Below are positions 974 to 34,682 of a stretch of DNA of 50,888 nucleotides, in pieces (positions within the stretch are counted from its first letter, which is position 1; each line of letters opens with the position of its first letter). Source of the DNA: a virus; the IMG/VR virus record IMGVR_UViG_3300022693_004335, positions 1-50,888 of that record; one strand, 5' to 3'. The notes under the pieces were generated by a model. It did not search any database and was not told the origin of the DNA. It was given only the letters and a program-made list of their open reading frames with translations. The translations under genes and the position numbers were made by a program.

Positions 974-2227
974 ATGAACAGAATTATTCTTGTAGGCAAC
1001 GGATTTGATTTAGCTCACGATTTGAAAACCAGTTACGATGATTTTTTAAATTATTACTGGGAACAGGTTATTGACAACGTGAATCAGAATTTAAAGGAAG
1101 GCTATGAAGGAAATGGCATAAAGATTCTAAGAGGTATAGGTGATAAATGTGTTGGAAAAACATATTCGCATCTTGTGAATAGTGCTGCTCAAGTAGCTTG
1201 TAAAATCCAATTTACAAACAGCTTTTTGAAAATAATAATGGAATCGAAAAGTTTGAATAATTGGGTTGATATTGAAGATGTTTATTATAGAGAATTGGTG
1301 AAGAGAATGAATAATAGTCCAAAGTCAATTTATTCATTAAATAAACAATTTGAGGAAATTAAATTAGCTTTAAAAAATTACCTATCCACCATAAATTTTA
1401 AAGTGAATTCTGAAAAAAGAGTACATATCAGGAATTCATTTGAATCTCACATTTTCACTCCATTTAACTTTAAGGATTTTATAGAAAATGCGGTTGACGA
1501 TAAATCTGAGAGGGAATTAAAATTACTTAATTCATATATTGACAATCCAGAGAATTTCAAAAATAATCAATATCTATTTAATTTAAGTCGAAGGATTACA
1601 AAGGCTACAAATAAAAAAACTGCTATCACAGATTTATTGCTGAGTAACGATAGTGAGATTTATTTTGATCTAATTCCTGACAATATTTATTTACTAGATT
1701 TCAATTATACCAATACAACCAGTAACTATATTGAAAAGGTTTATTACGACTATTCTCTTGATAAAATGAGAAAGATTAATTGCGAAATAAACCACATACA
1801 TGGATCTCTCAATCCAAAACATAATAATCCTATAATTTTTGGTTTCGGGGACGAATTGGATGACAATTATCCAGCCATCGAAAAATTAAACAATAACGAC
1901 TTTCTTGAAAATATAAAATCCATAAGATATTCAGATACTGACAATTATAAAAAGTTACTTCAATTTGTTAATTCTGATCAATACCAAATATGCATTTTTG
2001 GACACTCCTGTGGTGTTTCCGATCGTACAATGCTCAACACCTTATTTGAGCACGAGAATTGTGTATCTATCAAACCATATTATCATTTAAGAGAAAATGG
2101 TACCGACAATTACAGTGATATCGTACGGAATATATCCCGTAACTTTAACAATAAAGCCAGTATGCGTGATAAGGTTGTAAACAAGACTTACTGCGAACCA
2201 TTAGTAAGACCTGAAAAAAATGGCTGA
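974..2227 (+). CDS. abiH: AbiH-family abortive infection protein
   Basis: A 417-residue protein opening with the AbiH signature: a Rossmann-like start 'IILVGNGFDLAHDLKTSYDDF' in which a Gly-rich turn is followed by D, H and the S-Y-DF motif. Near residue 255 is 'YLLDFNYTNT', then 'NHIHGSLN', and near 340 'ICIFGHSCGVSDRTML'; these blocks recur in AbiH proteins of phages and genomic islands. AbiH family members block productive infection by an unknown mechanism (Lactococcus AbiH is the prototype). Here it lies at the cargo end of a prophage, next to a tiny zinc-ribbon gene that overlaps its 3' end by 8 bp, so it likely protects the lysogen from other phages. A TACCTTTA box at 955-962 could be its -7 element, but no good -33 box is visible. 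Confidence 0.85.
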   Translation: MNRIILVGNGFDLAHDLKTSYDDFLNYYWEQVIDNVNQNLKEGYEGNGIKILRGIGDKCVGKTYSHLVNSAAQVACKIQFTNSFLKIIMESKSLNNWVDIEDVYYRELVKRMNNSPKSIYSLNKQFEEIKLALKNYLSTINFKVNSEKRVHIRNSFESHIFTPFNFKDFIENAVDDKSERELKLLNSYIDNPENFKNNQYLFNLSRRITKATNKKTAITDLLLSNDSEIYFDLIPDNIYLLDFNYTNTTSNYIEKVYYDYSLDKMRKINCEINHIHGSLNPKHNNPIIFGFGDELDDNYPAIEKLNNNDFLENIKSIRYSDTDNYKKLLQFVNSDQYQICIFGHSCGVSDRTMLNTLFEHENCVSIKPYYHLRENGTDNYSDIVRNISRNFNNKASMRDKVVNKTYCEPLVRPEKNG

Positions 2228-20363: not shown

Positions 20364-21659
20364 TTATGCAGATTCTACAAGTTCAGCTTCAAACTTCGCT
20401 ACTCCTTCCTCAGAAAGACTATCGATTTTCTTAGCTAATGTTGCGTCTTGCTGTGATTCAGTTGCCGGAGCAGTTTCACCAGCAGCATTGATACCCGCCA
20501 CTACAGAAGCTTTGGTATAGTCAGTACCTTTGTAGGTGTAAACTGCATCGCCTTCTGTTTGCTCATCTTCAGCAGCAGTAGCTTCTTCTGAGTTGATGTA
20601 GAAAATAGACTCTACATTCTGAAGGATTGGAAATACAACACCTTCAGCTCCGGTAGCTTCACTTACAGGATCTGTAGTACCCCACTTTTTAACTAAGATA
20701 TAGTCATTAGCTTTAGAATATTGAACACCTTCAACTGGGAATTCTTCTTCCGCAAGAGTAGAATAAACAAGGTTACCTATATTGGTCCCGGTTGTAAATA
20801 CGACCATGTCTTTTGTCCATCCCTCAGTAACGATTTTCTTTCCGTTTTTCTGGTGGGTAAATGTTCGATCAATAACAATCAAATTCATTTTAGCCTTTTT
20901 AGAAAAAACAGACTTCAGATCATCTTCTTCTAAAGTTGGAATGTTTGGATTATCTCCTGAGAATTTGTTACCCCAAGCGAATTGAGCTTTGATCTGCTCA
21001 TTATCCAGAAGATTATTCATGGTTTCGTCACTCATCCAAATCGTATTTGGATATTCGCCTTTTGCTTTAGCCGCCTTCTTAATCCTAGCAATATCACTAA
21101 GAGGTTTAGAAGTAGGATCACTCCATTTAGCAATAACACCAAACTGATTACTTTCTGGAATATCATAACTTACACGAACAGCCGTTCCTGTGTTTTCTGT
21201 CTCTGGAACAAGTGCTACTCCTCCAGATAGACCCATCAGCATTGCTTGTTCTATTTTTTCTTTGATACCGAATATACTATTCTCGGAATCTTGAAAAACT
21301 TTACGAGCTAACTCGGTCTTTCTTCCTGTGTCTCTACGTAGAATACGAAGTGTATTCATTTCCTTTTCATTCAATAAGTACTTCATACCCATTTTAGGGA
21401 TTTCTCCAGAAGCACTTTTAATACGAGATCTTGATTTCACTGGTAAAGGAGAATCGAAGGAAACAATATCAGCTGTAATTCTGGTAAAATCACCACTAAT
21501 AGAGCTGTAAGTCATATCAGCACTATACTCAGGGGTAAGAAACTGCTCATGCAGATAATTGGGAGCATCCTTAGAACCGTTTACTTTCTCGTATTGAGCT
21601 AGTACAACTGATTCCATATACTCATCAATCAGATCTTTAAATATGGATTGTGTTGCCAT
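20364..21659 (-). CDS. major capsid protein (lambda E-like)
   Basis: A 431-residue protein. The N-terminal 370 residues match the phage major capsid protein E family: 'YSSISGDFTRITADIVSFDS', 'GEIPKMGMKYLLNEKEMNTL', 'IEQAMLMGLSGGVALV', then 'PNTIWMSDETMNNLLDNEQI' and 'GWTKDMVVFTTGTNIGNLVY'. The last 60 residues (from about 372) form an extra Ala/Glu-rich domain with 'YTYKGTDYTKASVVAGINAA', not part of the core. It follows scaffold and decoration genes, with a 1-bp overlap to the decoration gene. Confidence 0.9.
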   Translation of the reverse strand: MATQSIFKDLIDEYMESVVLAQYEKVNGSKDAPNYLHEQFLTPEYSADMTYSSISGDFTRITADIVSFDSPLPVKSRSRIKSASGEIPKMGMKYLLNEKEMNTLRILRRDTGRKTELARKVFQDSENSIFGIKEKIEQAMLMGLSGGVALVPETENTGTAVRVSYDIPESNQFGVIAKWSDPTSKPLSDIARIKKAAKAKGEYPNTIWMSDETMNNLLDNEQIKAQFAWGNKFSGDNPNIPTLEEDDLKSVFSKKAKMNLIVIDRTFTHQKNGKKIVTEGWTKDMVVFTTGTNIGNLVYSTLAEEEFPVEGVQYSKANDYILVKKWGTTDPVSEATGAEGVVFPILQNVESIFYINSEEATAAEDEQTEGDAVYTYKGTDYTKASVVAGINAAGETAPATESQQDATLAKKIDSLSEEGVAKFEAELVESA

Positions 21660-22717: not shown

Positions 22718-22796
22718 ATATATTTAGGTGAGATGTAGTATTGCTGTGTATTGGTCCTTTGTGTGCGTAGGTGGTATGCTTTTAGGTTTGGAGTAT

Positions 22797-22823
22797 AAAA
22801 AAAAAGAGCCCGGTGAAGGCTCT
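22797..22823 (-). terminator. rho-independent terminator before the head operon
   Basis: On the minus strand AGAGCC (22818-22823) pairs with GGCTCT (22805-22810) around a 7-nt loop, followed by a run of nine T (complement of 22797-22805). It ends transcripts of the small-gene region (22853 upward) and separates them from the scaffold-capsid operon. Confidence 0.85.
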
Positions 22824-22852
22824 TATACGGTTGTATAAAATCAATGTTTAGG

Positions 22853-23212
22853 CTATGGTGAGCCATTTATAAAAGATATGTAATTATTCAAATCTTCCAT
22901 AAATAGTTTGAGTTCTCGTTCGTATTCTTCTCTTGTAATTTGCTCACCCATATCACAATAGTAAGTGTAGCTATTTGTATCTAAAAAACCTTTAAAAAAA
23001 TCATTCCCAACTTCAAAATGGTGTTCCCTTGATGTTTTTTGAAAAGTAAAAGCCTGACAAGTTTCTTCATCAAAATATTCGTGTTTAATAATTTTAGCAT
23101 AAGCCCACCAAACACCATTTCTTGGGTGGTAAGAGTTTTTAGCCTTGAAGTATAAAGACTCATTTAATTCTAAATCTTTTACTTTTTTTCTCATTTCTAA
23201 ATTTTCATCCAT
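22853..23212 (-). CDS. hypothetical protein (119 aa)
   Basis: From the ATG at 23210-23212 (MDENLEMRKKVKDLELNESL); a longer frame from a GTG at 23311 would run through a cassette-boundary hairpin and is rejected. The product is charged, with 'HPRNGVWWAYAKIIKHEYFD' in the middle, without membrane segments or known motif. It is the last gene of the small-gene region before a strong terminator. Function unknown. Confidence 0.5.
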   Translation of the reverse strand: MDENLEMRKKVKDLELNESLYFKAKNSYHPRNGVWWAYAKIIKHEYFDEETCQAFTFQKTSREHHFEVGNDFFKGFLDTNSYTYYCDMGEQITREEYERELKLFMEDLNNYISFINGSP

Positions 23213-23265
23213 AATAAAATATGTTATTTGCGCTCGTACATCACGCACGCCTTTTTTCTTTAAAA

Positions 23266-23295
23266 ACAGTTCCCTTCGGTGGGTAACACTGTATA
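23266..23295. repeat. cassette-boundary hairpin (left-most)
   Basis: ACAGT (23266-23270) pairs with ACTGT (23288-23292), with CCC and GGG pairing inside, and the right part reads TAACACTGTATAA, the boundary motif seen at the other small genes (TAACTATGTATA, TAACATTGTATA). It borders the gene ending at 23308. Confidence 0.45.
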
Positions 23296-23307
23296 AACAA
23301 AATACAC

Positions 23308-23523
23308 TCACTTCAAACTGAATGCTATAAAATCGCCTCTCATATCAGTTGTAATTCCAATAAATCGCTTGCATTTGCATTTCATTCTCATATAGTGTTT
23401 ATCTTGTTTCATCCATTTTCCTTCAATCTCATCAAATGGTATTTGTCGCTCACATTCTGGACACTCGGCTTTACTTTCTGCTAGTGTTAAAATTCCGTTT
23501 GGTATAATTACTGTTTTGCTCAT
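23308..23523 (-). CDS. Cys-rich small protein (71 aa)
   Basis: A 71-residue protein (MSKTVIIPNGILTLAESKAE) with 'CPECERQ' at about 22-28 and 'MKCKCKRFIGI' at about 48-58, suggesting a zinc-binding pair of knuckles. Its 5' flank (GTATAACAAAAGTAAAACGA before the ATG) and its 3' end (TGAGTGTATTT) are nearly identical to those of the gene at 24084-24251, although the proteins differ. That is the pattern expected of exchangeable gene cassettes. Function unknown. Confidence 0.6.
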   Translation of the reverse strand: MSKTVIIPNGILTLAESKAECPECERQIPFDEIEGKWMKQDKHYMRMKCKCKRFIGITTDMRGDFIAFSLK

Positions 23524-23539
23524 GTTCGTTTTACTTTTG

Positions 23540-23752
23540 TTATACTCGTAAATTACCCTGCGGGGCGTGTTGCTCCGCTTTTAAAATTTTTAAAGCTGAT
23601 TTAAACTTCTCCACTCGCTTAGAGTGATATTCACTTGTCGATAAAAGAACTTTTATATCCACAGTTTTGTCCTTGTGAGAATCCTGAGGATAGCTCGCTA
23701 AATGATGTGATATATGTATTTGGGATTGTACCCATTCTATGATTTCTTCCAT
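23540..23752 (-). CDS. hypothetical protein (70 aa)
   Basis: A 70-residue protein (MEEIIEWVQSQIHISHHLAS) with a His-containing helical start and a basic end 'FKSALKILKAEQHAPQGNLR'. No family recognised. It lies in the small-gene array; downstream, on its 3' side, is the boundary TATACTCGTAAATTACCC, and upstream lies the 160-bp palindrome. Confidence 0.5.
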   Translation of the reverse strand: MEEIIEWVQSQIHISHHLASYPQDSHKDKTVDIKVLLSTSEYHSKRVEKFKSALKILKAEQHAPQGNLRV

Positions 23753-23794
23753 ATTTGTAAAATTTTAAAGACTCCCGCACCCCTTAATTTGCCC

Positions 23795-23953
23795 TAACGG
23801 TCTGTGTGTGCAGTGCCATTGGTTAATAATTGTATTTTAGTTAATTATAGCTTAGCAGGGTAACTATCCCTAACACCGCATATCTGCAAGACGGCACAGC
23901 AATCTGCCCCTCTGTAGGGCTGCGCCCTCCAGGCAGATATACACAGACCGTTA
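23795..23953. repeat. long intergenic palindrome A
   Basis: The arms TAACGGTCTGTGT (23795-23807) and ACACAGACCGTTA (23941-23953) are perfectly complementary over 13 bp. Inside is a second hairpin built on ATCTGCC and GGCAGAT, with AGGG/CCCT at its tip. TAAC at one end and GTTA at the other is the layout of integron attC sites. Together with the adjoining element to 24083 it fills a 331-bp stretch without a gene. Confidence 0.6.
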
Positions 23954-23960
23954 TATACAA

Positions 23961-24051
23961 GTGGCGAATAGGTATCGAACCTATCTACGGCAGTCCTTCA
24001 ATAATTAGACTTCCTGTTTTTTATCACTGTACCTACTGTGAGTATCGCCAC
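23961..24051 (-). ncRNA. tRNA-like element without normal anticodon arm
   Basis: On the minus strand, 91 nt: a 7-bp acceptor-like stem GTGGCGA/TCGCCAC, a D-like arm TCAC...GTGA with GG in its loop, and a perfect T-arm ATAGG-TTCGATA-CCTAT next to the acceptor. In place of the anticodon arm is a stem of about 7 bp with a 12-nt loop, so no anticodon can be assigned. The element is enclosed by GTTATATA (23951-23958) and TATATAAC (24056-24063), which pair outside the acceptor stem. It may therefore be one of the attC-like hairpins carrying a tRNA-like fold. No CCA is encoded. Confidence 0.45.
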
Positions 24052-24083
24052 CAGATATATAACTATGTATAACACAAATACAC

Positions 24084-24251
24084 TCACTTACAATAGGTCT
24101 TTTTAAACCAATCTCTTGCTTTTTCTAGTCGTGCTAAATCTTGTCTAGCCATTTTTAATTCTTCTTTTCCTCCAACAATACCTCCTGCTATTGCAGAATC
24201 TTGATGAAAAACGCACTCTTCTAATATTTCTAAAACTAATTTTTTGCTCAT
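24084..24251 (-). CDS. 55-aa hypothetical protein in cassette
   Basis: ATG at 24249-24251, 55 residues (MSKKLVLEILEECVFHQDSA ... RDWFKKTYCK). 'AIAGGIVGGKEELKMARQDL' precedes a basic helix, so a small helical protein is likely. The gene is enclosed by an inverted repeat, TGTATAACACAA (24066-24077) and TTGTGTTATACA (24268-24279), and shares its flanks with the gene at 23308-23523. Not recognised as a family. Confidence 0.55.
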   Translation of the reverse strand: MSKKLVLEILEECVFHQDSAIAGGIVGGKEELKMARQDLARLEKARDWFKKTYCK

Positions 24252-24284
24252 AATTCGTTCATTTTACTTGTGTTATACAGTTCC

Positions 24285-24420
24285 GTTATCTACAGTTTCA
24301 CAACTCCAACGCGCGCTTCTTTAATTCCAATCTCACGTGATCTACATTGTGAATAAAGCCACTACCGTGGGCTATGCCTTCGCTCTGTTGTGAAACTGCA
24401 AAGCCCTTCGGGTAGATAAC
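24285..24420. repeat. intergenic palindrome B (attC-like)
   Basis: The left arm GTTATCTA + CAGTTTCACAAC (24285-24304) is perfectly complementary to the right arm GTTGTGAAACTG (24387-24398) + TAGATAAC (24413-24420); the right arm has a 14-nt insert that itself contains CCCTTCGGG. Outward of both ends are the boundary motifs TATACAG...CCGTTATC and GATAACTATGTATA. Two separated paired boxes with an unpaired spacer resemble the R and L boxes of attC. Confidence 0.6.
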
Positions 24421-24431
24421 TATGTATATAA

Positions 24432-24674
24432 TTAATGCTTAACCTTTTGCTTCTCAATCAAGGCTTGTGTTTTAAGTCGCCTACTACCAACGGATGACAT
24501 ACAGTCAAAACATTGTTTATCGCAAGTTCCTAAAACTTCTGGATTAAGAATTTCATCCTTTTCTCTTTCAGTCATATTTGTTTTTTCAAGAGCGTGGAAA
24601 GTTTCATTCCATTCGTCTATTGAAAATTCCTCGTCGCCACACATCCGTTGGCAGTAAAAATTATTGTTATTCAT
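24432..24674 (-). CDS. Cys-containing hypothetical protein (80 aa)
   Basis: An 80-residue protein (MNNNNFYCQRMCGDEEFSID) with five Cys: C8 and C12 near the start and 'TCDKQCFDCMSSVGSRRLKT' later, so metal binding is possible. It lies between palindrome B and the gene at 24718, whose boundary TATACTTATCCGTTA is only 28 bp upstream of its start. Function unknown. Confidence 0.5.
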   Translation of the reverse strand: MNNNNFYCQRMCGDEEFSIDEWNETFHALEKTNMTEREKDEILNPEVLGTCDKQCFDCMSSVGSRRLKTQALIEKQKVKH

Positions 24675-24717
24675 AATTATTTGTTTTTGAATTTCGCACT
24701 AATCATATACTTATCCG

Positions 24718-24927
24718 TTAGCGCGCATTAAATTCTGCTACTAACTTTGATGCTTTTTCTCTATTGAATTTACTTGTGCAATTTGACCAACAAATATTTT
24801 TAGTACATCCTTCAATCCATCCCCATTCTGTCCCGTCAGTGTTCGGGTGTCTGTTTGTCTTTAAACTCAATTTGTCAGCTATTGGCACTATTTCTTGTCC
24901 TGATACGTCTTTGCCTATACTTTCCAT
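24718..24927 (-). CDS. hypothetical protein (69 aa)
   Basis: From the ATG at 24925-24927 (MESIGKDVSGQEIVPIADKL), 69 residues with 'EWGWIEGCTKNICWSNCTSK'. Its TAA stop is the TAAC of the boundary motif itself (minus strand GCTAACGGATAAGTATA). The arms GTTAGCGCG (24717-24725) and CACGCTAAC (24937-24945) enclose the gene. That a stop codon coincides with the boundary is common in integron cassettes. Function unknown. Confidence 0.5.
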   Translation of the reverse strand: MESIGKDVSGQEIVPIADKLSLKTNRHPNTDGTEWGWIEGCTKNICWSNCTSKFNREKASKLVAEFNAR

Positions 24928-24941
24928 AAAACAACGCACGC

Positions 24942-25065
24942 TAACATTGTATATAAATCAGTGGCGTTACCGTGTCTTTTTGAACCACCTTTGCTGTTAA
25001 TTTAGTTTAAGCGTGTTTGCAATCTTACAGCTATTAATCGCCACCGCTTCATATACTTATCCGTT
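24942..25065. repeat. intergenic palindrome D (attC-like)
   Basis: TAAC-att-GTATAT-aaatca-GTGGCG at 24942-24966 faces CGCCAC-cgcttc-ATATAC-ttatcc-GTT at 25039-25065, so three paired boxes alternate with unpaired spacers, symmetrically. The interior (GTGTC-TTTTTGA-ACCAC) looks like a decayed copy of the T-arm in the element at 23961-24051. No gene fits within it. Confidence 0.6.
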
Positions 25066-25101
25066 CAGAATAATTGACCTGCGTTTCGAAACACCAAGCT
25101 T

Positions 25102-25305
25102 TCAAACCCTTTCAACATCTCTAATTTCCTCCAGTTCATTACCGGCTACCGTGTAACTCCCGATAGCTTCATATTTCTTTTCTCCGTTGATATATCCGTC
25201 GATGAAATATTCGGTGCTTTGTCCGTGTCTTTCGCATTGCTCTACTTTTTCTGGATGGCCCTGTTCGATAAGTTCATCGATTAGGATTTTAGTTGTTGTG
25301 TTCAT
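25102..25305 (-). CDS. hypothetical protein (67 aa)
   Basis: A 67-residue protein (MNTTTKILIDELIEQGHPEK), strongly acidic, with 'QCERHGQSTEYFIDGYINGE'. It starts within an ATGA overlap with the gene at 25302-25733, so these two are translated together. Its stop is 37 bp from palindrome D. No family recognised. Confidence 0.55.
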   Translation of the reverse strand: MNTTTKILIDELIEQGHPEKVEQCERHGQSTEYFIDGYINGEKKYEAIGSYTVAGNELEEIRDVERV

Positions 25306-25733
25306 TGAGTTATTTCATTTAATTTTTTGTATTTCCATTCAGTCATAAGAAAATCCGCGTACCATAGAAAAACAGTAAGTAGTAAGCTAGCTTGTTTGAT
25401 TGAATCAACGTTATGAGGCGCTAATAATGCGGATCCTTCTAGCACTCCTAAGCTGTAATTTGTTATATCCAAACCACAAGCATTACCCGGGACTGAAATA
25501 TGTTCCAAACCCCAAACACCCATTCTAACTCTAATTTGACCTTCATAAAAGGTCTTATCATAACCGTGATTCATTAACCAAATTGGTGAGAGATTGGCAA
25601 CCGCGGTATTAGCTTCTTCTTGAGATATATTAGCTTCTTTGACCAGATTTTTAAATTCTGGAAATAATTCAATATTAAATCCAGAGGCTGACAATCCGGG
25701 TGAAGGGTTGTATTTTGATATGTGATAAAACAT
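25302..25733 (-). CDS. hypothetical protein (143 aa)
   Basis: A 143-residue protein (MFYHISKYNPSPGLSASGFN) with one hydrophobic stretch near 115-130 (ASLLLTVFLWYADFLMTEW). It contains 'VWGLEHISVPGNACGLDITN', a compact conserved-looking block. No motif that assigns a function. It overlaps the next gene by 4 bp and follows the winged-helix-like gene by 5 bp. Confidence 0.5.
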   Translation of the reverse strand: MFYHISKYNPSPGLSASGFNIELFPEFKNLVKEANISQEEANTAVANLSPIWLMNHGYDKTFYEGQIRVRMGVWGLEHISVPGNACGLDITNYSLGVLEGSALLAPHNVDSIKQASLLLTVFLWYADFLMTEWKYKKLNEITQ

Positions 25734-25738
25734 AATTC

Positions 25739-25993
25739 CTATTTAAAAAGTTCTGTTTGATTTTCTATTTTTTGCACTGGTCTCCCGTGCTTAGGTGTTG
25801 ATTTTCCTAATTTGTAATACCCTTTCTTAATACGGACCAAAAGCTGATTCTTAACCATTCTTGAAAGCGTGTGTCCTACGTGCTTTTCAGTATTGTAGTA
25901 ATACCGGATCTGCCCGCGTTCAATGATTTCCTTTTTTGAGAGGATTGTTTCCTTGTCTGGGAAGGTTTCGAGTATTTCAGCTTGGCGGTTCAT
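25739..25993 (-). CDS. small winged-helix-like protein
   Basis: 84 residues (MNRQAEILETFPDKETILSK). The stretch 'KKEIIERGQIRYYYNTEKHVGHTLSRMVKNQLLVRIKKGYYKLG', from about 20 to 63, reads as helix - helix - wing ('VGHTLSRMVKNQLLVRIKKG' with a typical 'G-Y-' turn), like small transcription regulators. The C-terminus is basic (TPKHGRPVQKIENQTELFK). DNA binding is inferred from this pattern only. Confidence 0.5.
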   Translation of the reverse strand: MNRQAEILETFPDKETILSKKEIIERGQIRYYYNTEKHVGHTLSRMVKNQLLVRIKKGYYKLGKSTPKHGRPVQKIENQTELFK

Positions 25994-25994
25994 T

Positions 25995-26315
25995 TTATTG
26001 AAGTCTTAAGGCTCTAAGCCAATTCAATATTCTATTGTTTTCCCCTAATGAATAACCCCAATTTCCGGTTATCAAAAAATTTACTGGAATGCCAACAATC
26101 ATAACTACCATAACTAGTAATGCGAATGGCATGGTCAGCCTTAATAATGGATTTATACTTTTCTTTTCCTCGGTATAAAAATCCATTCCAAGATCAATAA
26201 ACCTATCAGCTAGTTCTTCTGAATCAATGTTTTTCAATTCAGGAAATACTTTTTTGAATCTTGGAATATTCCCATAGCCATGTGTCCAAGTTCTTTTTAA
26301 CTTTCTATATATCAT
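25995..26315 (-). CDS. small membrane protein (106 aa)
   Basis: 106 residues (MIYRKLKRTWTHGYGNIPRF). The first 60 residues are charged and there is a hydrophobic region at about 57-85 ('LLRLTMPFALLVMVVMIVGI', 'PVNFLITGN'), so one or two membrane segments are likely. It is 1 bp from the next gene's start. No family recognised. Confidence 0.55.
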   Translation of the reverse strand: MIYRKLKRTWTHGYGNIPRFKKVFPELKNIDSEELADRFIDLGMDFYTEEKKSINPLLRLTMPFALLVMVVMIVGIPVNFLITGNWGYSLGENNRILNWLRALRLQ

Positions 26316-26360
26316 ATCTCTATTTTATTTTACAATTAACACAAGAGCCTTGCGCTCTAG

Positions 26361-26522
26361 TTACTTTATTCCTTTAAAATTCAAATTCCAGCCCCTTCTC
26401 CATTCTTTGAATTTTACTGATCCGTCTTTACAAGGGTTTTCCGGCTTTAGCTTCCAAGATGATTGGCAGTATTCGTTCCAAGCCTTTTGACCTTCTTGAA
26501 AAGCTTTCTCTTGAGCTGTCAT
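26361..26522 (-). CDS. ribosome-modulation-factor (RMF)/CrpP-like small protein
   Basis: A 53-residue protein (MTAQEKAFQEGQKAWNEYCQ). 'FQEGQKAWNEY' followed by 'NPCKDGSVKFKEWRRGWN' fits the RMF-like pattern A-x3-G-x2-A ... NP[YC] ... W-x2-GW. RMF dimerises 70S ribosomes in stationary phase, and related phage or plasmid proteins exist whose functions are debated. It has its own promoter (TATCTTTG, complement of 26547-26554, 25 bp before the ATG). RMF-like is a pattern-based call. Confidence 0.55.
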   Translation of the reverse strand: MTAQEKAFQEGQKAWNEYCQSSWKLKPENPCKDGSVKFKEWRRGWNLNFKGIK

Positions 26523-26580
26523 AGTTTTCGATTGTTTTGATGTTTCAAAGATAGCAGTTAGTTTTCATTTTTTGAAAACT
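26523..26580. promoter_or_regulatory. divergent promoter region with perfect operator palindrome
   Basis: AGTTTTCA (26560-26567) and TGAAAACT (26573-26580) form a perfect inverted repeat, 5-bp spacer, midway between the RMF-like gene and the PAPS-reductase-like gene. The minus-strand box TATCTTTG (26547-26554) fits the Bacteroidota -7 consensus for the RMF-like gene, with the palindrome over its -33 region. The first part (26523-26555) recurs at 37383-37415. The nearby HTH protein at 27610 is a candidate binder. Confidence 0.55.
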
Positions 26581-26617
26581 TTTATAGTTTATTTTACTTT
26601 TATTGAAAATACATTTG

Positions 26618-26625
26618 TACTTTTG
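26618..26625 (+). promoter_or_regulatory. TAnnTTTG box before the PAPS-reductase-like gene
   Basis: TACTTTTG, exact match to the -7 consensus, ends 4 bp before the ATG at 26630. Transcription would begin at or within the start codon, so the message would be leaderless or start at a downstream codon. Without a clear -33 element the call is provisional. Confidence 0.4.
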
Positions 26626-26629
26626 AAAT

Positions 26630-27595
26630 ATGAAAAATGAATTGTTAGAGGGGTATGATAAGTACATAGTTGCCTTTTCGGGTGGTAAGGATAGTATCGC
26701 CTGTTTTTTGTCATTACTCGAGTCTGGAGTGCCTAAAAACAAAATTGAACTTTGGCACAGTTTGATTGATGGGCCGGGGGAAACATTTATGGATTGGCCA
26801 GTAACCGAAGACTATTGCAGAAAATTTGCAAATGCTTTTGGTGTTCCTATTTATTTCAGTTGGAAAGAAGGTGGGTTTAAAGGTGAAATGCTCAGAAACA
26901 ATCAACCAACCAGACCCACTTTTTTTGAAACGCCCGAAGGTTTATTGAGTTCAGGTGGTAAAGGTCCTAATGGCACCCGATTAAAATTTCCGCAGGTGAG
27001 CGCAGATTTACGAGTAAGATGGTGTTCAGCTTATTTAAAGATTGATGTTTGCTCTTCAGCTATTCGAAACCAGTCAAGATTCAACGGGATTAAAACCGCT
27101 TTGATATCTGGTGAACGTGCACAGGAAAGCACCGCTCGGGCAAACTATAAAGTATTTGAAATAGATCGTGCAGATAATAGAAACGGTAAAAACAAGCGCC
27201 ACGTTGATAGAATAAGATTAGTGCACGGCTTATCAGAGGCTGAAGTATGGGAAATTATTAAGCGTTACCGTGTTGTTGTTCATCCTTGCTATTATATGGG
27301 ATGGAGCCGGTGCAGTTGTCTTTTTTGCATTTTTGGCAACGATGATCAGTTTGCTAGTGCTCAAATGGTTAGTCCTTTGAAGGCTAAAGAACTGGTAACG
27401 CACGAGAATTCATTCGGAGTAACCTTAAAGCGGGATAAGCCTATTTCTATTGTAATGAATAACGGGAAGGTTTATGCAGCAATAACGCCTGAGCTTTTAG
27501 AAATGTCGCGATCAACTGAATACACTGGAAAAATCTTCACTACAAACTGGAAGCTTCCTGCCGGGGCTTTTGGTGAAAGTTGCGGTCCTAATTAA
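26630..27595 (+). CDS. PAPS-reductase-family (PP-loop) protein, IbrA/DndC-like
   Basis: A 321-residue PP-loop ATP pyrophosphatase of the phosphoadenosine phosphosulfate reductase family. The motif SGGKDS is at 17-22 ('IVAFSGGKDSIACFLSLLES'), and the family feature 'GERAQESTARANYKVFEIDR' is near 160. A Cys cluster near 222-236 ('CYYMGWSRCSCLFCIFG') suggests an Fe-S cluster. Such proteins activate a substrate by adenylation and transfer sulfur or reduce sulfate. Known relatives in phages and islands include IbrA and the DndC-type sulfurtransferases of DNA phosphorothioation. No other dnd gene was found. A ParB-like protein at 30935, the IbrB type, is the best partner candidate. It heads a plus-strand island (26630-28721). 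Confidence 0.85.
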   Translation: MKNELLEGYDKYIVAFSGGKDSIACFLSLLESGVPKNKIELWHSLIDGPGETFMDWPVTEDYCRKFANAFGVPIYFSWKEGGFKGEMLRNNQPTRPTFFETPEGLLSSGGKGPNGTRLKFPQVSADLRVRWCSAYLKIDVCSSAIRNQSRFNGIKTALISGERAQESTARANYKVFEIDRADNRNGKNKRHVDRIRLVHGLSEAEVWEIIKRYRVVVHPCYYMGWSRCSCLFCIFGNDDQFASAQMVSPLKAKELVTHENSFGVTLKRDKPISIVMNNGKVYAAITPELLEMSRSTEYTGKIFTTNWKLPAGAFGESCGPN

Positions 27596-27609
27596 ATAAA
27601 ATAGATACT

Positions 27610-27915
27610 ATGTCAAATAATTTAACTTTGAACGTTGAAACAAATGTTCTTGATAAGTTGATTTTAAAAATTAAAGAAGTCTTAAAGGCTAAAAAACTTA
27701 AGCAAAAAGATCTTGCTGCACATCTTAATTACGATGCTTCATACATGAGCCGTGTTTTAAAAGGTGAAATAACTATGAGTATTAAAACTCTTCAAGAGAT
27801 AGCAGACTTTTTAAAGGTTCCAGTACATCAGCTTATAGAAGTTCCGGATGGTTATATAAACGTTTACGACAATGATAAAAACTGGAAGGGAATAATCAAA
27901 AAGGACTTTATATGA
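27610..27915 (+). CDS. XRE-family HTH regulator
   Basis: A 101-residue protein with a clear HTH_3 domain at about 15-75: 'KLKQKDLAAHLNYDASYMSR' then 'LKGEITMSIKTLQEIADFLK', ending 'VPVHQLIEV'. It follows the PAPS-reductase-like gene by 14 bp and overlaps the next small gene by 4 bp, so these are co-transcribed. It may bind the palindrome at 26560-26580 and control its own operon. That link is inferred. Confidence 0.85.
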   Translation: MSNNLTLNVETNVLDKLILKIKEVLKAKKLKQKDLAAHLNYDASYMSRVLKGEITMSIKTLQEIADFLKVPVHQLIEVPDGYINVYDNDKNWKGIIKKDFI

Positions 27916-28049
27916 GTTCAGTAGCAAAAGAAACGGCAGATAAATATCAGGACTTTTTCAATTTTATGAATCAGGAACACGGGTTAATTTTGACAATTTC
28001 CGAAATGAATGAGATTTTAGAAGAAGCCCAAAAGCTTTTAAATCAATAG
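27912..28049 (+). CDS. 45-aa hypothetical protein
   Basis: The ATG overlaps the stop of the HTH gene (ATGA). The 45-residue product (MSSVAKETADKYQDFFNFMN ... ILEEAQKLLNQ) is acidic and helical. Its stop is 8 bp before a tRNA-like element on the same strand. A small antirepressor or regulator-partner role is possible but unsupported. Confidence 0.5.
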   Translation: MSSVAKETADKYQDFFNFMNQEHGLILTISEMNEILEEAQKLLNQ

Positions 28050-28057
28050 AACAAAAA

Positions 28058-28192
28058 GAGCAAGTGGCGGAATTGGTAGACGCTATCTACTCCGAGGAAT
28101 GATAAGTTCGCGCGATAGTTCTAAAGAAGTAAATCCTCGCGGTGCGTTTTGCACAGTAGGGGATTGTGCAGGTTCGAACCCTGCCTTGCTCA
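28058..28192 (+). ncRNA. tRNA-Leu-like RNA with an expanded middle
   Basis: 135 nt beginning with a 7-bp acceptor stem GAGCAAG (28058-28064) / CTTGCTC (28185-28191), followed by the tRNA-Leu D-arm GTGGCGGAATTGGTAGACGC, and a perfect T-arm GCAGG-TTCGAAC-CCTGC (28168-28184). Normal Leu tRNAs are about 87 nt. The 87 nt between D-arm and T-arm hold CTATC/GATAG and CGAGGA/TCCTCG pairings and a GTGC-GTTTT-GCAC hairpin, but no 7-nt anticodon loop. It is too short for a group I intron. No CCA is encoded. This looks like a deliberate or decayed tRNA mimic; the plus-strand genes downstream start 15 bp after it. Confidence 0.6.
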
Positions 28193-28206
28193 CTAAAACA
28201 TATCTT

Positions 28207-28449
28207 ATGAAACACCTAGCATCAATAAGAGCAAACGTAATCTACACCAAAGAAAAGGGCGAGTATAAGAAGATTAATGAGATTGTTCTTCTCTCCGATG
28301 GTCCAGAATATAAGTACTCAAACGAGGGTGAGATAGTGCGCCAGAGATCACTCCAAGAACACCGATTTTTGGTTGACAATGCTGGAATAGATAATTTGAT
28401 TGCTGTTCTTGAGAAAATAAAAGAAGTTGAAAACGAAGATTTAGAGTGA
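28207..28449 (+). CDS. hypothetical protein (80 aa)
   Basis: From the ATG at 28207 (MKHLASIRANVIYTKEKGEY), 80 residues; a longer frame from 28099 would start inside the tRNA-like element. 'KKINEIVLLSDGPEYKYSNE' and 'HRFLVDNAGIDNLIAVLEKI' suggest a small beta plus helix protein of phage type. Its stop overlaps the next ATG by 1 bp. Function unknown. Confidence 0.65.
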   Translation: MKHLASIRANVIYTKEKGEYKKINEIVLLSDGPEYKYSNEGEIVRQRSLQEHRFLVDNAGIDNLIAVLEKIKEVENEDLE

Positions 28450-28721
28450 TGGAAACAATCTACAAATACCCATTAGAAATAACATACTATCAAGGAGTAG
28501 AAATGCCAAAAGGCTCCGAAATACTTTCTGCTAAATGTCAGAACAATTCTTTAGTACTATATGCAGGTGTTAGCGAAAATGAAGTAAATGAACTTCGTAC
28601 TATAGAAGTTATAGGAACTGGTAATCCTGTCTATTCAAATTCAAAAACGAAGCGTAGATTTATAGATACTGTGATAATGCCTAAAGGTTTAGTTTGGCAC
28701 GTGTTTGAGCGGATTTCTTAA
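28449..28721 (+). CDS. conserved phage protein, DUF7352-like
   Basis: 90 residues from the ATG at 28449 (METIYKYPLEITYYQGVEMP). The start 'TIYKYPLE', 'MPKGSEILSAKCQNNSLVLY' and end 'GLVWHVFERIS' follow a well-known small phage protein family that often occurs among early genes. No activity is known for it. It is the last gene of the plus-strand island and is closed by a hairpin at 28727-28754. Confidence 0.7.
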   Translation: METIYKYPLEITYYQGVEMPKGSEILSAKCQNNSLVLYAGVSENEVNELRTIEVIGTGNPVYSNSKTKRRFIDTVIMPKGLVWHVFERIS

Positions 28722-28726
28722 AATAC

Positions 28727-28754
28727 AACCAACCCTCACTGATGCGGGTTGGTT
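28727..28754. terminator. hairpin between convergent units
   Basis: AACCAACCC (28727-28735) pairs with GGGTTGGTT (28746-28754), perfect 9 bp with a 10-nt loop. The plus-strand side has no T-run, and the minus strand continues GTATTTT, so it is likely a bidirectional terminator or mRNA-end stabiliser. Confidence 0.6.
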
Positions 28755-28932
28755 AAACTAAACTCTTCCTATACTTCACCAAATCCTTAGTAGTCACACT
28801 CACAGAAACCCCCAGTGCTTGAGATATTTCAATAATCGCTCGTTTAGAACTTGATCCAGCAGCTTTTTTGATTTCAAAGAACATTCCAGACTGCTTTACC
28901 CGTTTTTCAAGTAATTTCTTATTCCTGTTCAT
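28753..28932 (-). CDS. 59-aa HTH-like small protein
   Basis: ATG at 28930-28932, overlapping the last codons of the gene at 28919 by 14 bp. The product (MNRNKKLLEKRVKQSGMFFE) is Lys-rich, and 'KRAIIEISQALGVSVSVTTK' has the spacing of a helix-turn-helix (ISQALGVSVSVTT), followed by 'DLVKYRKSL'. Its stop lies in the terminator hairpin. A DNA-binding role is inferred from the HTH-like segment. Confidence 0.55.
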   Translation of the reverse strand: MNRNKKLLEKRVKQSGMFFEIKKAAGSSSKRAIIEISQALGVSVSVTTKDLVKYRKSLV

Positions 28933-31306: not shown

Positions 31307-32656
31307 CTAGCTTACATTAAAAGTTTCACCAATACTACTTACACCCTCAGCTTTGATCTTATCCAGTTCTTCACTTGGATTCTTCACAAGTGGATTATTT
31401 TGAACCGCGGTCTCTTGGCTCATTGTTGCCTTACCTCCTGTTGCGTTATAAAGCATCTGAATTTGCTCCGCTAGATCCTCAGGTATTGAGTAATTGAATT
31501 CAATGTCAAAGCTTAATTCATCATCATTAATTCCTAAACCGTTTTTGATTACTGATAGAATACGGCTGATTGCTGTATCATAAGCTCCACGTTTGCGTTT
31601 AGCTTTGTTGATGGCATCTTGCAGCATAAGCACGAGTGCGCGACCGGAAAGCGCTCCAATTCCTTTCACGTTGTCAAAGGATAGATCTGGAGTTTGTGAA
31701 ATACTATGAATGTCTTCTTTTAGCCAATCCTTTTCCAGTTCAATTGATTCAACTCCGGTGTCACGCTGCAAGAATTCTGCTTCCGCCTGAACAACTTGAT
31801 TGTCGTGTATTGCGTGGCCCAGTAAAAGAGATTTACCGTCATCATCAATTTCAATCAATGTTTCATCTTCACCCTCATCATTCTTAACCGTTCCACCTTT
31901 CAACTTTAGAATAGGAAATGCGAAATAGTTGTTTGATCCGGCAAGCTTTGACTTGAGCATTTCATAACGGTCAATCATTTCTTTCACGATAAACCATTCC
32001 GGCTCTTCCTGCTCGACAAATACAACCGGAATCACTCCGAACTCGTGTGGGTCTGATTTTTGGTACTTTTCATCTTGGTACTTGTGAATCTCAGTATCTG
32101 TAAATATCCATAAGTGCTCTACTTCATCAATCACAAATTCCCAGTAGAAAGCAACCAGATCACCATACACATCGTATTGAGGCGTGTACTTTCCATTTTC
32201 GGTCGTATAGAATCGCGACTTGATTTCTTTGCCGGTTTGACCTTGCATCATTGAGAATATGAATACTCCAATTGTGGTGCTCATTACACTCTCCGCAAAG
32301 TCCTGAAGTTTGTTGCTGATCCTATTCTTCTTGTATACATCTAGGATTGCAATCGCATTGGCATTATCTGCATCATTCGCTGAGATGGTTGGTGCATCAC
32401 CAAACAGGAAAGAAACCGCAGTATTCACGATTTTCTTTTGCAGCTGCACTTTGATACGCTCGGCTTTAACAGATTTTTTCCCTTGAGTGTAATCTTCTCG
32501 CTTTCCAATCTGCAGATCGCGTAGTTTTCTCCCTTCATCGCTTCCGCTATACTCCTTCGCGTATTCGGTTATTTTCTTTTGTCGCTTATCTTGAGTTGCT
32601 AGGTAATCTTTTACCTTTTGCGCGTCGGTGAAATCAAAGTCAAATTCTTCTTCCAT
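31307..32656 (-). CDS. portal protein (SPP1 gp6-like)
   Basis: A 449-residue portal protein of the SPP1 gp6 / DUF1073-like type. 'KKIVNTAVSFLFGDAPTISA' (about 70-89) is the portal N-terminal helix region. 'DLVAFYWEFVIDEVEHLWIF' and 'GVIPVVFVEQEEPEWFIVKE' follow, and the C-terminal third (about 315-400) has the long helix 'VKGIGALSGRALVLMLQDAI', which is typical of portals. It forms the dodecameric vertex through which DNA is packaged. Adjacent to the large terminase (3-bp gap). Confidence 0.9.
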   Translation of the reverse strand: MEEEFDFDFTDAQKVKDYLATQDKRQKKITEYAKEYSGSDEGRKLRDLQIGKREDYTQGKKSVKAERIKVQLQKKIVNTAVSFLFGDAPTISANDADNANAIAILDVYKKNRISNKLQDFAESVMSTTIGVFIFSMMQGQTGKEIKSRFYTTENGKYTPQYDVYGDLVAFYWEFVIDEVEHLWIFTDTEIHKYQDEKYQKSDPHEFGVIPVVFVEQEEPEWFIVKEMIDRYEMLKSKLAGSNNYFAFPILKLKGGTVKNDEGEDETLIEIDDDGKSLLLGHAIHDNQVVQAEAEFLQRDTGVESIELEKDWLKEDIHSISQTPDLSFDNVKGIGALSGRALVLMLQDAINKAKRKRGAYDTAISRILSVIKNGLGINDDELSFDIEFNYSIPEDLAEQIQMLYNATGGKATMSQETAVQNNPLVKNPSEELDKIKAEGVSSIGETFNVS

Positions 32657-32659
32657 AAT

Positions 32660-34180
32660 CTATGATCCAAAGTTTAATCCTTTGGGTTTTGTTGGTTTTG
32701 AGACAGTCGTTGGTACAACCAGTTCAAATATTTCTCGCATCATAAACGGGTCTAGTAAATCGGTACTCTCCCCATTGAGATACTTTTGTTTCATTTCTGC
32801 TTTTGGAATTAAAGCTTCTGGCTCTTCATCCAATTTTTTCTTTTTCTTTATCGCTTTACGTTCAGCCATCATTCGTTGACGAACGGTTTGCTTATCATCA
32901 AACATCTTATTCGCCACTTGAGGCATCACCCAAACTTCATTCTTTGCAACACGCTCACCGCTCAGGATGAAACATTGCGTTTTCAGATTCTTAAACTTTC
33001 TCCCGTCTTTCGTGTCGCGTGGTTTACTTCCGTTATCAAATGGAATCGAATTAGGAATGAATGCGTTGTTAGTCCCTCCGATAAACGCTCCTACTCCATT
33101 GGCATCATAAGCCACATTACGGTTAGGTACTCCGTGTTTCTCCTGCATTGCTATAATAGCATCGGTGACGTCTTTACCGGTGGACTTTTCAATAATGCTC
33201 ACATCAGTAATCCTGAAATCATCCCATACGTAAATGATAAGCTTATCCTGACCGCTCATTGCGACATCGACTGTTATGTATTTCTTACCGCCTTTTACAA
33301 AATTGTTAGTGAACACATCTTTAAAAGCATTGTAGTCATAGACATCTGCCGGATTGATTGAAACCTTCCAGTTTCCGTCAAGCAATTGGCGTTTAGAATC
33401 CTCATCTTGAGAAGCTAGGTTTGCCAGGTACTCAGGGTTATTTTTTAGAAGCTCCTTATTCTGGTAAACAGAACCGCCTATAAATGTGATTGATTTGACA
33501 AAGTGTTTGGCATCTATCCCTGAAGCTTCCACAAGTGGTTGAATAAAATATGCAGCTTTCGTTAAGCATTCTTCAACCGTATCTCCCCAGATCATTGTAT
33601 CTCCATCCTTGACAAAATATCTGACTACTCCTTGTCTTTCCGGAATCGGAAAACCATCTTCCCCAATCCACCAGCTTATCAATTCATAAACCCAGCTATC
33701 AGGATCCGGGTTACAAGTGGCCCTAACACAAGGTTTAATCTTACTGTTTGAACGGTTACGCGACAATAAATAAAAGAACGTCTGTTTTGAAAAGTGTGTT
33801 AACTCATCAAAACCTATAAATGGAATCTGTGACCCCTGCCAGCTCGTTACGTTTTTCTCGTGCTCTAAATGCGAGAACTTAATCTTTGCACCGCTATCAA
33901 ACTTCCACTGCAACTCAGTTTTATTTGATATCGCCCCGGCTAATGGATAAAGTTTATTGCTTTCATCCCACAAACCTCCTTGTGCTTTAATCTGGGTTGT
34001 AAGCCTTCTAAAAATTACAGCCCCGAAGTCTGGATCATCTACATCTCTAAGCGGATCAAGTAAAAGACAAAAAGTTTTACCAGCACCTGCGGCTCCTCCT
34101 CCAATCACGATATCTGCAGGACTAGCCAAAGCCATCATCTGATAACCTTCTTGCGGTCTAATCCTTTTTACTTCTCCCAT
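32660..34180 (-). CDS. terL: terminase large subunit
   Basis: About 506 residues from the ATG at 34180 (MGEVKRIRPQEGYQMMALAS); a TTG five codons upstream is less likely. Walker A is GGGAAGAGKT at 27-36 and Walker B 'PFIGFDELTH' has D125-E126, followed by the C-motif 'LSRNRSN'. The nuclease domain begins with 'YITVDVAMSGQD' (D305 and D312) and a third acidic cluster near 380-420. It packages DNA into the procapsid and cuts the concatemer. It overlaps the small subunit gene by about 23 bp. The C-terminal tail is basic. Confidence 0.95.
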   Translation of the reverse strand: MGEVKRIRPQEGYQMMALASPADIVIGGGAAGAGKTFCLLLDPLRDVDDPDFGAVIFRRLTTQIKAQGGLWDESNKLYPLAGAISNKTELQWKFDSGAKIKFSHLEHEKNVTSWQGSQIPFIGFDELTHFSKQTFFYLLSRNRSNSKIKPCVRATCNPDPDSWVYELISWWIGEDGFPIPERQGVVRYFVKDGDTMIWGDTVEECLTKAAYFIQPLVEASGIDAKHFVKSITFIGGSVYQNKELLKNNPEYLANLASQDEDSKRQLLDGNWKVSINPADVYDYNAFKDVFTNNFVKGGKKYITVDVAMSGQDKLIIYVWDDFRITDVSIIEKSTGKDVTDAIIAMQEKHGVPNRNVAYDANGVGAFIGGTNNAFIPNSIPFDNGSKPRDTKDGRKFKNLKTQCFILSGERVAKNEVWVMPQVANKMFDDKQTVRQRMMAERKAIKKKKKLDEEPEALIPKAEMKQKYLNGESTDLLDPFMMREIFELVVPTTVSKPTKPKGLNFGS

Positions 34181-34682
34181 TGTTTGGTATTTCAAACATT
34201 GTGATGTTAGTTGATTTCTGAGTGTTGTCTTTTTCGTAGAAACCAGTGTGTTTGTGTATCATTTCCATTGCTTTCTCCTTGCTAACAAATGATAACTCTA
34301 CAAAAGTTTCAGTAACAACCTTATCCCCGTCCTTGTATGATTTTGAGGTCAGCTTATACTTGCTGATCAACCTTCTCATTTCTTCTGGTAATTCCTTTAT
34401 TTGCTCAGGGCTCAAAAGAATAGTTTCAGTTATATCCGAATATGCCCAATTCTCTAATTCTTCAAGTAGAACCTCATGTGTTGTCCTGAGTTTCTTCTTA
34501 GCTTCGTTCTGCTTTTCTTTTATATAGCCTTTAACCTCTGGTATTCTCTGGATTTTAGAAAAGCTGTCATCTGCTCTTTTAGCCTTTGGATAAAGCGTTC
34601 TATAAGCCTCTGCTCCGTTAAATCCATTAACGAACCATTGGTCTATAACTGCTTTATATTTTTCAAAGGTTTTTTTAGTCAT
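34158..34682 (-). CDS. terS: terminase small subunit
   Basis: A 174-residue protein of the Terminase_2 type. The N-terminal 'KYKAVIDQWFVNGFNGAEAY' plus 'RTLYPKAKRADDSFSKIQRI' 'PEVKGYIKEKQ' is the typical HTH (binding pac/cos DNA). A middle acidic helical oligomerisation region and an extended C-terminal tail follow, as expected. It lies just upstream of the large subunit. Its own upstream gap (35215-35463) is rich in structured repeats and could contain the packaging site. Confidence 0.88.
   Translation of the reverse strand: MTKKTFEKYKAVIDQWFVNGFNGAEAYRTLYPKAKRADDSFSKIQRIPEVKGYIKEKQNEAKKKLRTTHEVLLEELENWAYSDITETILLSPEQIKELPEEMRRLISKYKLTSKSYKDGDKVVTETFVELSFVSKEKAMEMIHKHTGFYEKDNTQKSTNITMFEIPNNGRSKKD

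Follow-up and report, generated by a model that had tools for sequence, protein, structure and literature searches.

The DNA analysed here, referred to as the window, is a 50,888-bp IMG/VR virus record that is identified as a tailed phage by its PHROG matches, among them the terminase (32660-34195), the portal protein (31307-32656) and the major head protein (20364-21659), all encoded on the minus strand. Relatives of the head protein were found at 88% identity in one record (L002), at 75% in two others (L003 and L006) and at 40% on a contig of Flavobacterium cupreum, and because of these relatives, including the last, we infer that the host is likely to belong to the Bacteroidota. In L002, L003 and L006 the head block is either contiguous or has other DNA inserted; relative to these, the head module of the window is interrupted by an accessory stretch (22785..28759) that contains the array described below. 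The proposal that a cassette array is present would have been refuted by related phages carrying the same genes in a stable order, and in these relatives the array is absent, or other DNA takes its place. As none of the close relatives of the window phage was found to carry the array, exchange within its own lineage is untested.

The accessory stretch also holds a phosphoadenosine phosphosulfate reductase-like gene (26630-27595, plus strand), oriented opposite to the head genes, and a tRNA match (28058-28192, plus strand; Rfam, 36.1 bits) with about 60 extra nucleotides between the D and T arms, for which ARAGORN made no call. An AbiH-like abortive-infection gene lies at 974-2227 (plus strand; Pfam PF14253, E 2.7e-25).

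The array itself (23284..25065, minus strand) was delimited by its cluster of half-sites and by box pairs, and consists of five hairpin sites (S1 to S5) and four bodies, transcribed from the minus strand and listed here from high to low coordinates. Site S1 (24942..25065; 124 bp, AACGGATAAGTATATGAAGCGGTGGCG...CGCCACTGATTTATATACAATGTTA) is followed by body F (24717..24945), in which a pair of boxes, GTTAGCGTGC and GCGCGCTAACG, brackets a gene of 73 amino acids, gene F (24718-24939). Site S2 (24417..24720; TAACGGATAAGTATA ... TATACATAGTTA), recognised by its half-sites, encloses within its arms gene A3 (24432-24674; 80 amino acids), the 5' frame of which is similar to one in L046. Body E (24285..24420; GTTATCTACC ... 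TGTAGATAACG) has a box pair and a strong hairpin (RNA fold z-score -3.1), with no ORF of at least 40 amino acids listed on its own strand. Gene A2 (24084-24251; 55 amino acids) lies inside site S3 (24060..24288; TAACGGAACTGTATAACACAAG ... TTGTGTTATACATAGTTA), whose frame recurs around other ORFs in L017, L018, L021, L024, L031 and L036. Body D (23950..24063; GTTATATATC ... TGTATATAACG) folds as a tRNA-like cloverleaf (fold z-score -3.6), and site S4 (23795..23953) has a perfect 13-nt inverted repeat, TAACGGTCTGTGT / ACACAGACCGTTA, around a structured loop in which no minus-strand ORF is listed. Gene B (23540..23752; 70 amino acids), for which no box pair is recognisable, stands between S4 and site S5 (23284..23555), which has a degenerate left half, TAATTTACGAGTATA, at 23541-23555 and the right half TATACAGTGTTA, and which contains gene A1 (23308-23523; 71 amino acids).

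The cloverleaf of body D (23955-24052) has the T-arm GGTTCGATACC and an acceptor GTGGCGA/TCGCCAC, and neither ARAGORN nor Rfam called it a tRNA. A known RNA identity was also considered for segments C, D and E, for which Rfam and ARAGORN offer no explanation.

Half-sites and box pairs of the window array

Along the minus strand from 25,065 to 23,284, left half-sites of the form TAACG-N4-GTATA alternate with right half-sites of the form TATACA-NN-GTTA around five tiny unknown genes, and all four copies of TAACNNTGTATA in the window fall at 23284-24953. We determined that there are eight distinct half-sites in 1.8 kb; the method used for shuffles counts 11, because overlapping matches are counted twice, and dinucleotide shuffles of the whole window gave a mean of 1.9 matches, with no more than 4 in any 2 kb. 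The outward-facing shared end motifs on which the sequence-only reading was based are therefore confirmed, and are clustered well above shuffled expectation. Furthermore, only two GTTA(x6)..(x6')TAACG pairs with at least five of the six free positions matching exist in the 50.9 kb, both of them in the array, where they bound bodies F and E, and none was found on the other strand of the window. At body D four of the six free positions pair; body B has no good box pair. A clean box pair is missing from body B and from the array at its outer ends, so parts of the array may be decayed.

Other details that had been read from the letters alone proved accurate: the GTGGCG/CGCCAC cores are present, at 23961-24051 and 24961-25044; genes A1 and A2 share their flanks (30 nt at 83% and 21 nt at 81%) and not their coding sequences, their proteins giving no BLASTP alignment; the stop codon of gene F is the TAA of a boundary TAACG; and the record yielded no tyrosine-recombinase domain, consistent with the claim that the window has no integrase. 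That the genes are separated by palindromes holds for B and F, which lie between sites, and fails for A1, A2 and A3, which lie inside the arms of hairpin sites. No confident Pfam or PHROG match was obtained for any of the five genes, and searches of the array DNA against phage and plasmid records gave nothing useful. The window array comprises five attC-like sites, recognised without attC covariance models, and no recombinase, and in this it resembles a CALIN, for which two or more attC sites without an integrase would be required.

Related sites and shared cassettes in other phages

A search with the 5' frame common to A1 and A2 (TATAACANAAGTNAAANGAAC) found 18 viral stretches. The full 5' and 3' frame surrounds small ORFs in L017, L018, L021, L024, L029 and L031, while L022 has the 5' part, and L036 was added by a search with the 3' frame. 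Versions of one framed ORF are found in L024, L029 and L031, and the other frame-bearing stretches carry different ORFs; the boundaries, whose absence from other genomes would have counted against the cassette reading, do occur around different genes in other, unrelated phage contigs. Adjoining the framed ORFs in other phages are hairpins with the loop CGTTTTAATG, and the pattern TAACG...CGTTTTAATG...GTT matches at least 120 viral stretches, not all of which are real. Among the matches listed, 98 sites, of which 82 are distinct, have arms that proved complementary between AAC and GTT. Nor is the window alone in having genes within site arms, since 15 of 27 GTTx-CGTTTTAATG-x'AAC hairpins adjoin an arm-enclosed stretch after a TAACG-type half-site, recombinase loci included.

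In L017, L018, L021, L024, L031 and others the arms of the hairpin vary on both sides of an unchanging loop, CGTTTTAATG; this constancy is partly by construction, because the search pattern fixed the loop, and the loop also occurs in hairpins outside arrays (L031:3664 and 3696). Cores such as AAGGTGGGG...CCCCACTT characterise a second class of sites; a third, GTGTATGAGCAGTAGCCGAACAC...ATTGCTTATACACTTTGTTAGGCAC, is common to two different phages (L017:1530-1640 and L225:7520-7645). Four sites of the same family as those of the window array are present on the minus strand of Polaribacter phage P12002L (L319, KR136259; 29960-30090, 30840-30980, 38000-38130 and 38800-38960), beside DNA methyltransferase genes.

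Within the set drawn from the matches listed, the distinguishing complementarity runs across the gene-bearing body. At 23 of 75 testable sites, versus 1.7 in permuted data, the complement of the 10 nt that end in AAC is found upstream, on the far side of the body, and at 11 nt there is none; inside the hairpin, even a 7-nt complement is present at just 6 of the 82 distinct sites. A co-oriented ORF ends no more than 120 nt before the AAC at 69 of these 82 sites, versus nine on the opposite side, and at 22 of the 69 the stop codon lies in TAAC. Such cross-body complementarity is, at the level of sequence, a hallmark of integron cassettes, and together with the ORF position it is the pattern to be expected if cassettes excise and insert at the boxes.

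Pieces with unrelated flanks are shared between different phages: 315 bp at 100% identity (L221/L257), 576-580 bp at 99.5% (L220/L228) and 305 bp at 98.7% (L257/L275). The breakpoints of shared cassettes lie at boxes in both partners in 29 of 61 cases, versus 3.2% for shifted positions, although the exact crossover base cannot be read because the sites resemble each other. The window is linked to such arrays by S1, which is near-identical to L225:6457-6588, a site located some 1.4 kb upstream of a recombinase gene; the agreement begins exactly at AAC and stops exactly at GTT, with different flanks on either side. In the L225 array, successive bodies have matching boxes (GTTGTGCGC...GCGCACAAC and GTTAGGCAC...GTGCCTAAC), and the array ends with TAACTATTATATATA before the recombinase.

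The long 3'-frame pattern had no match in 395 Bacteroidota genomes, being too specific. The loop pattern matched 18 of these genomes, about six of them with true hairpins as judged by eye; as raw counts were not above those of a reversed control, we claim no enrichment in viruses. Convincing chromosomal arrays of the same grammar, ending just before a recombinase relative, were seen in only a few cases, L316 and L307 (Bacteroidota genomes G198 and G316). The viral status of some of the IMG/VR contigs used is uncertain, hallmark genes being present on several and not all; likewise, several of the recombinase-bearing records, and not all, carry terminase or other phage genes.

The recombinase family and its attI-like site

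Four array-bearing records each encode one tyrosine recombinase of 265-268 amino acids near the array. A profile built from these four retrieved 80 viral loci, which define a family of about 266 amino acids. These loci contain 73 hairpin sites, 72 upstream of the recombinase gene and on its strand and one downstream; none is on the opposite strand, and 336 kb of comparison loci contain no such site. Of 77 loci, 58 have an attI-like AACTA[TG], in most cases TAACTATNATATAT, upstream of the recombinase gene, usually at a distance of about 55 bp, and the box that precedes it has a complementary upstream GTT box in 39 of 54 testable loci. No attI-like site was found in the window.

The best sequence matches of the recombinase are XerA-like archaeal and other Xer proteins (PDB 4a8e, NF040815), and the R, K, H-x-x-R, H and Y motifs are visible in the alignment. 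Its scores are below the NCBIfam cut-offs for both XerA-type recombinases and integron integrases, with 155 of the 265 bits required by TIGR02249 obtained in two stretches. Because the integron model and the IntI4 structure each align in two stretches, we infer that the IntI-specific segment is missing. Archaeal integrases, by comparison, retain the IntI-specific domain (PMC9668308). INPHARED phage records contain no close recombinase (best 40%). Relatives are common in bacteria and were detected by profile in 107 of the 395 Bacteroidota genomes; the regions upstream of 20 of these bacterial relatives showed no overall excess of box pairs. We found no paper on this recombinase-array family and no relevant paper on the loop sequence, preprints and most subscription papers having been outside the search.

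Interpretation and relation to known systems

We consider it probable (about 0.8) that the window region is a mobile cassette array of an integron-like system of Bacteroidota phages, without a recombinase of its own; recombination is inferred here and none has been observed. In this reading a cassette is made up of two parts: a small body, usually one ORF, between GTTA and TAACG boxes that complement each other over up to 10 nt, and behind it a hairpin site with two boxes, in the order TAACG, about 4-6 nt, arm, loop, arm, about 1-4 nt, GTTA. Once the cassette is circular, its own box pair would complete the outer stem of the folded single-stranded site, which would be recognised by the XerA/IntI-like recombinase of about 266 amino acids whose gene closes the full arrays of other phages, which are often giant. 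This enzyme is proposed to excise cassettes and to insert them at other sites or at the attI-like TAACTATNATATAT beside its own gene, and the window phage would receive it in trans, either from the host or from another phage that is co-infecting or present as a prophage. What the comparisons establish, from sequence, is the grammar of the sites, its recurrence around different genes, the cross-body complementarity, the box-precise breakpoints between arrays, a recombinase and an attI-like site that keep a fixed position, and the presence of one window site in a recombinase-bearing array as well. It is inferred that a folded single strand serves as the substrate, that GTT/AAC is where cutting takes place, that the recombinase is supplied in trans and that the genes bring any benefit; on recombination of a folded single strand by the integrase there is only published work, with IntI1 and sites of P12002L.

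Several features by which an integron would be known are present: sites that combine AAC/GTT as outer boxes with inner L boxes and with spacers left unpaired; tandem co-oriented cassettes of one ORF and one site each; box complementarity across the gene, in the window at bodies E and F; and an attI beside the integrase, in the related loci (58/77). Three of the five window genes lie inside site arms instead of forming such cassettes, unlike genes in ordinary integrons, which speaks against a cassette reading. A canonical GTTRRRY/RYYYAAC pair, with both boxes, was found at none of the 82 sites from the matches listed, and the recombinase lacks the additional IntI domain. The claimed layout of integron cassettes therefore stands for the arrangement, the cassette-specific complementarity and the box-precise exchange in related arrays, and not for a canonical attC core or a typical IntI, and for these two reasons we speak of an integron-like array rather than a textbook integron. 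That a phage head operon carries a cassette array is supported in this qualified form.

It seems quite improbable that the hairpins are instead RNA elements in a phage operon, be they terminators, sites of processing by RNase III or structured RNAs that separate small moron genes, and that they take no part in recombination. Bodies D and E and site S1 do fold better as RNA than shuffled sequences, the sites come after the stop codons of co-oriented ORFs, and a constant loop CGTTTTAATG with variable arms would suit such elements. However, RNA hairpins should keep their complementarity within themselves and need none across genes; the inner arms do pair, yet the outer boxes pair across bodies and rarely inside the hairpin, shared pieces break at boxes, and one recombinase family, with an attachment-like site, occupies a fixed side of the arrays. 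A shufflon-like cluster, in which inverted sites flip segments in place, could account for the alternating orientation of the half-sites; it is hardly conceivable given unidirectional ORFs (69 of 82 sites from the matches listed), sites on a single strand relative to the recombinase (72 of 73) and shared pieces in different contexts.

Phages are known to carry integrons and CALINs (Qi et al. 2023, PMC9892861). A further explanation is an ordinary CALIN, with canonical attC sites brought into the phage by a standard IntI. The attC sites of Polaribacter phage P12002L were detected with standard tools and one of two tested was used by IntI1 (PMC9892861), and the genome of that phage, an already known case, carries sites of the window-array family; whether its four family sites are those assayed by Qi et al. 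was not established. We nevertheless hold this explanation to be very unlikely, as none of the 82 sites from the matches listed has both canonical core boxes, the enzyme that accompanies full arrays does not reach the IntI cut-off and has no IntI-specific segment, and the genes point towards this recombinase.

Returning to the integron-like system, we lean, with some reserve, towards regarding it as a separate integron lineage, which would have a XerA-like recombinase lacking the IntI domain, together with reversed gene polarity, would be widespread in Bacteroidota phages and some chromosomes, and would let phages trade single genes by loading them both between and inside hairpin sites. The integron-like system gives a definite way in which single small genes could be exchanged between phages at exact positions, and such exchange would explain the shifting sets of tiny unknown genes in these phages. 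Should the recombinase be able to use folded sites while lacking the IntI-specific domain, this bears on the origin of integrons from Xer-type recombinases. In addition, the search patterns gained may reveal many more phage cassettes, some of them likely genes for host takeover or counter-defence.

Like integrons and CALINs, the phage system has tandem small genes and AAC...GTT two-box hairpin sites with unpaired spacers, and it shares with integrons the box complementarity within a cassette and a tyrosine recombinase with an attI-like site. Unlike in integrons, the sites have no canonical GTTRRRY/RYYYAAC pair, the recombinase has no IntI-specific domain, the genes run towards the recombinase, and some genes lie inside site arms. 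In contrast to XerA and other Xer proteins, the recombinase falls below the NCBIfam cut-off and adjoins a cassette array instead of acting on a dif-type chromosome site. In chromosomal integron arrays, such as those with the Vibrio VCRs, homogeneous sites separate unrelated small genes of unknown function. The phage arrays likewise have similar sites between unrelated small unknown genes, but they combine several site classes in one array, and full arrays are found on viral contigs and a few chromosomes.
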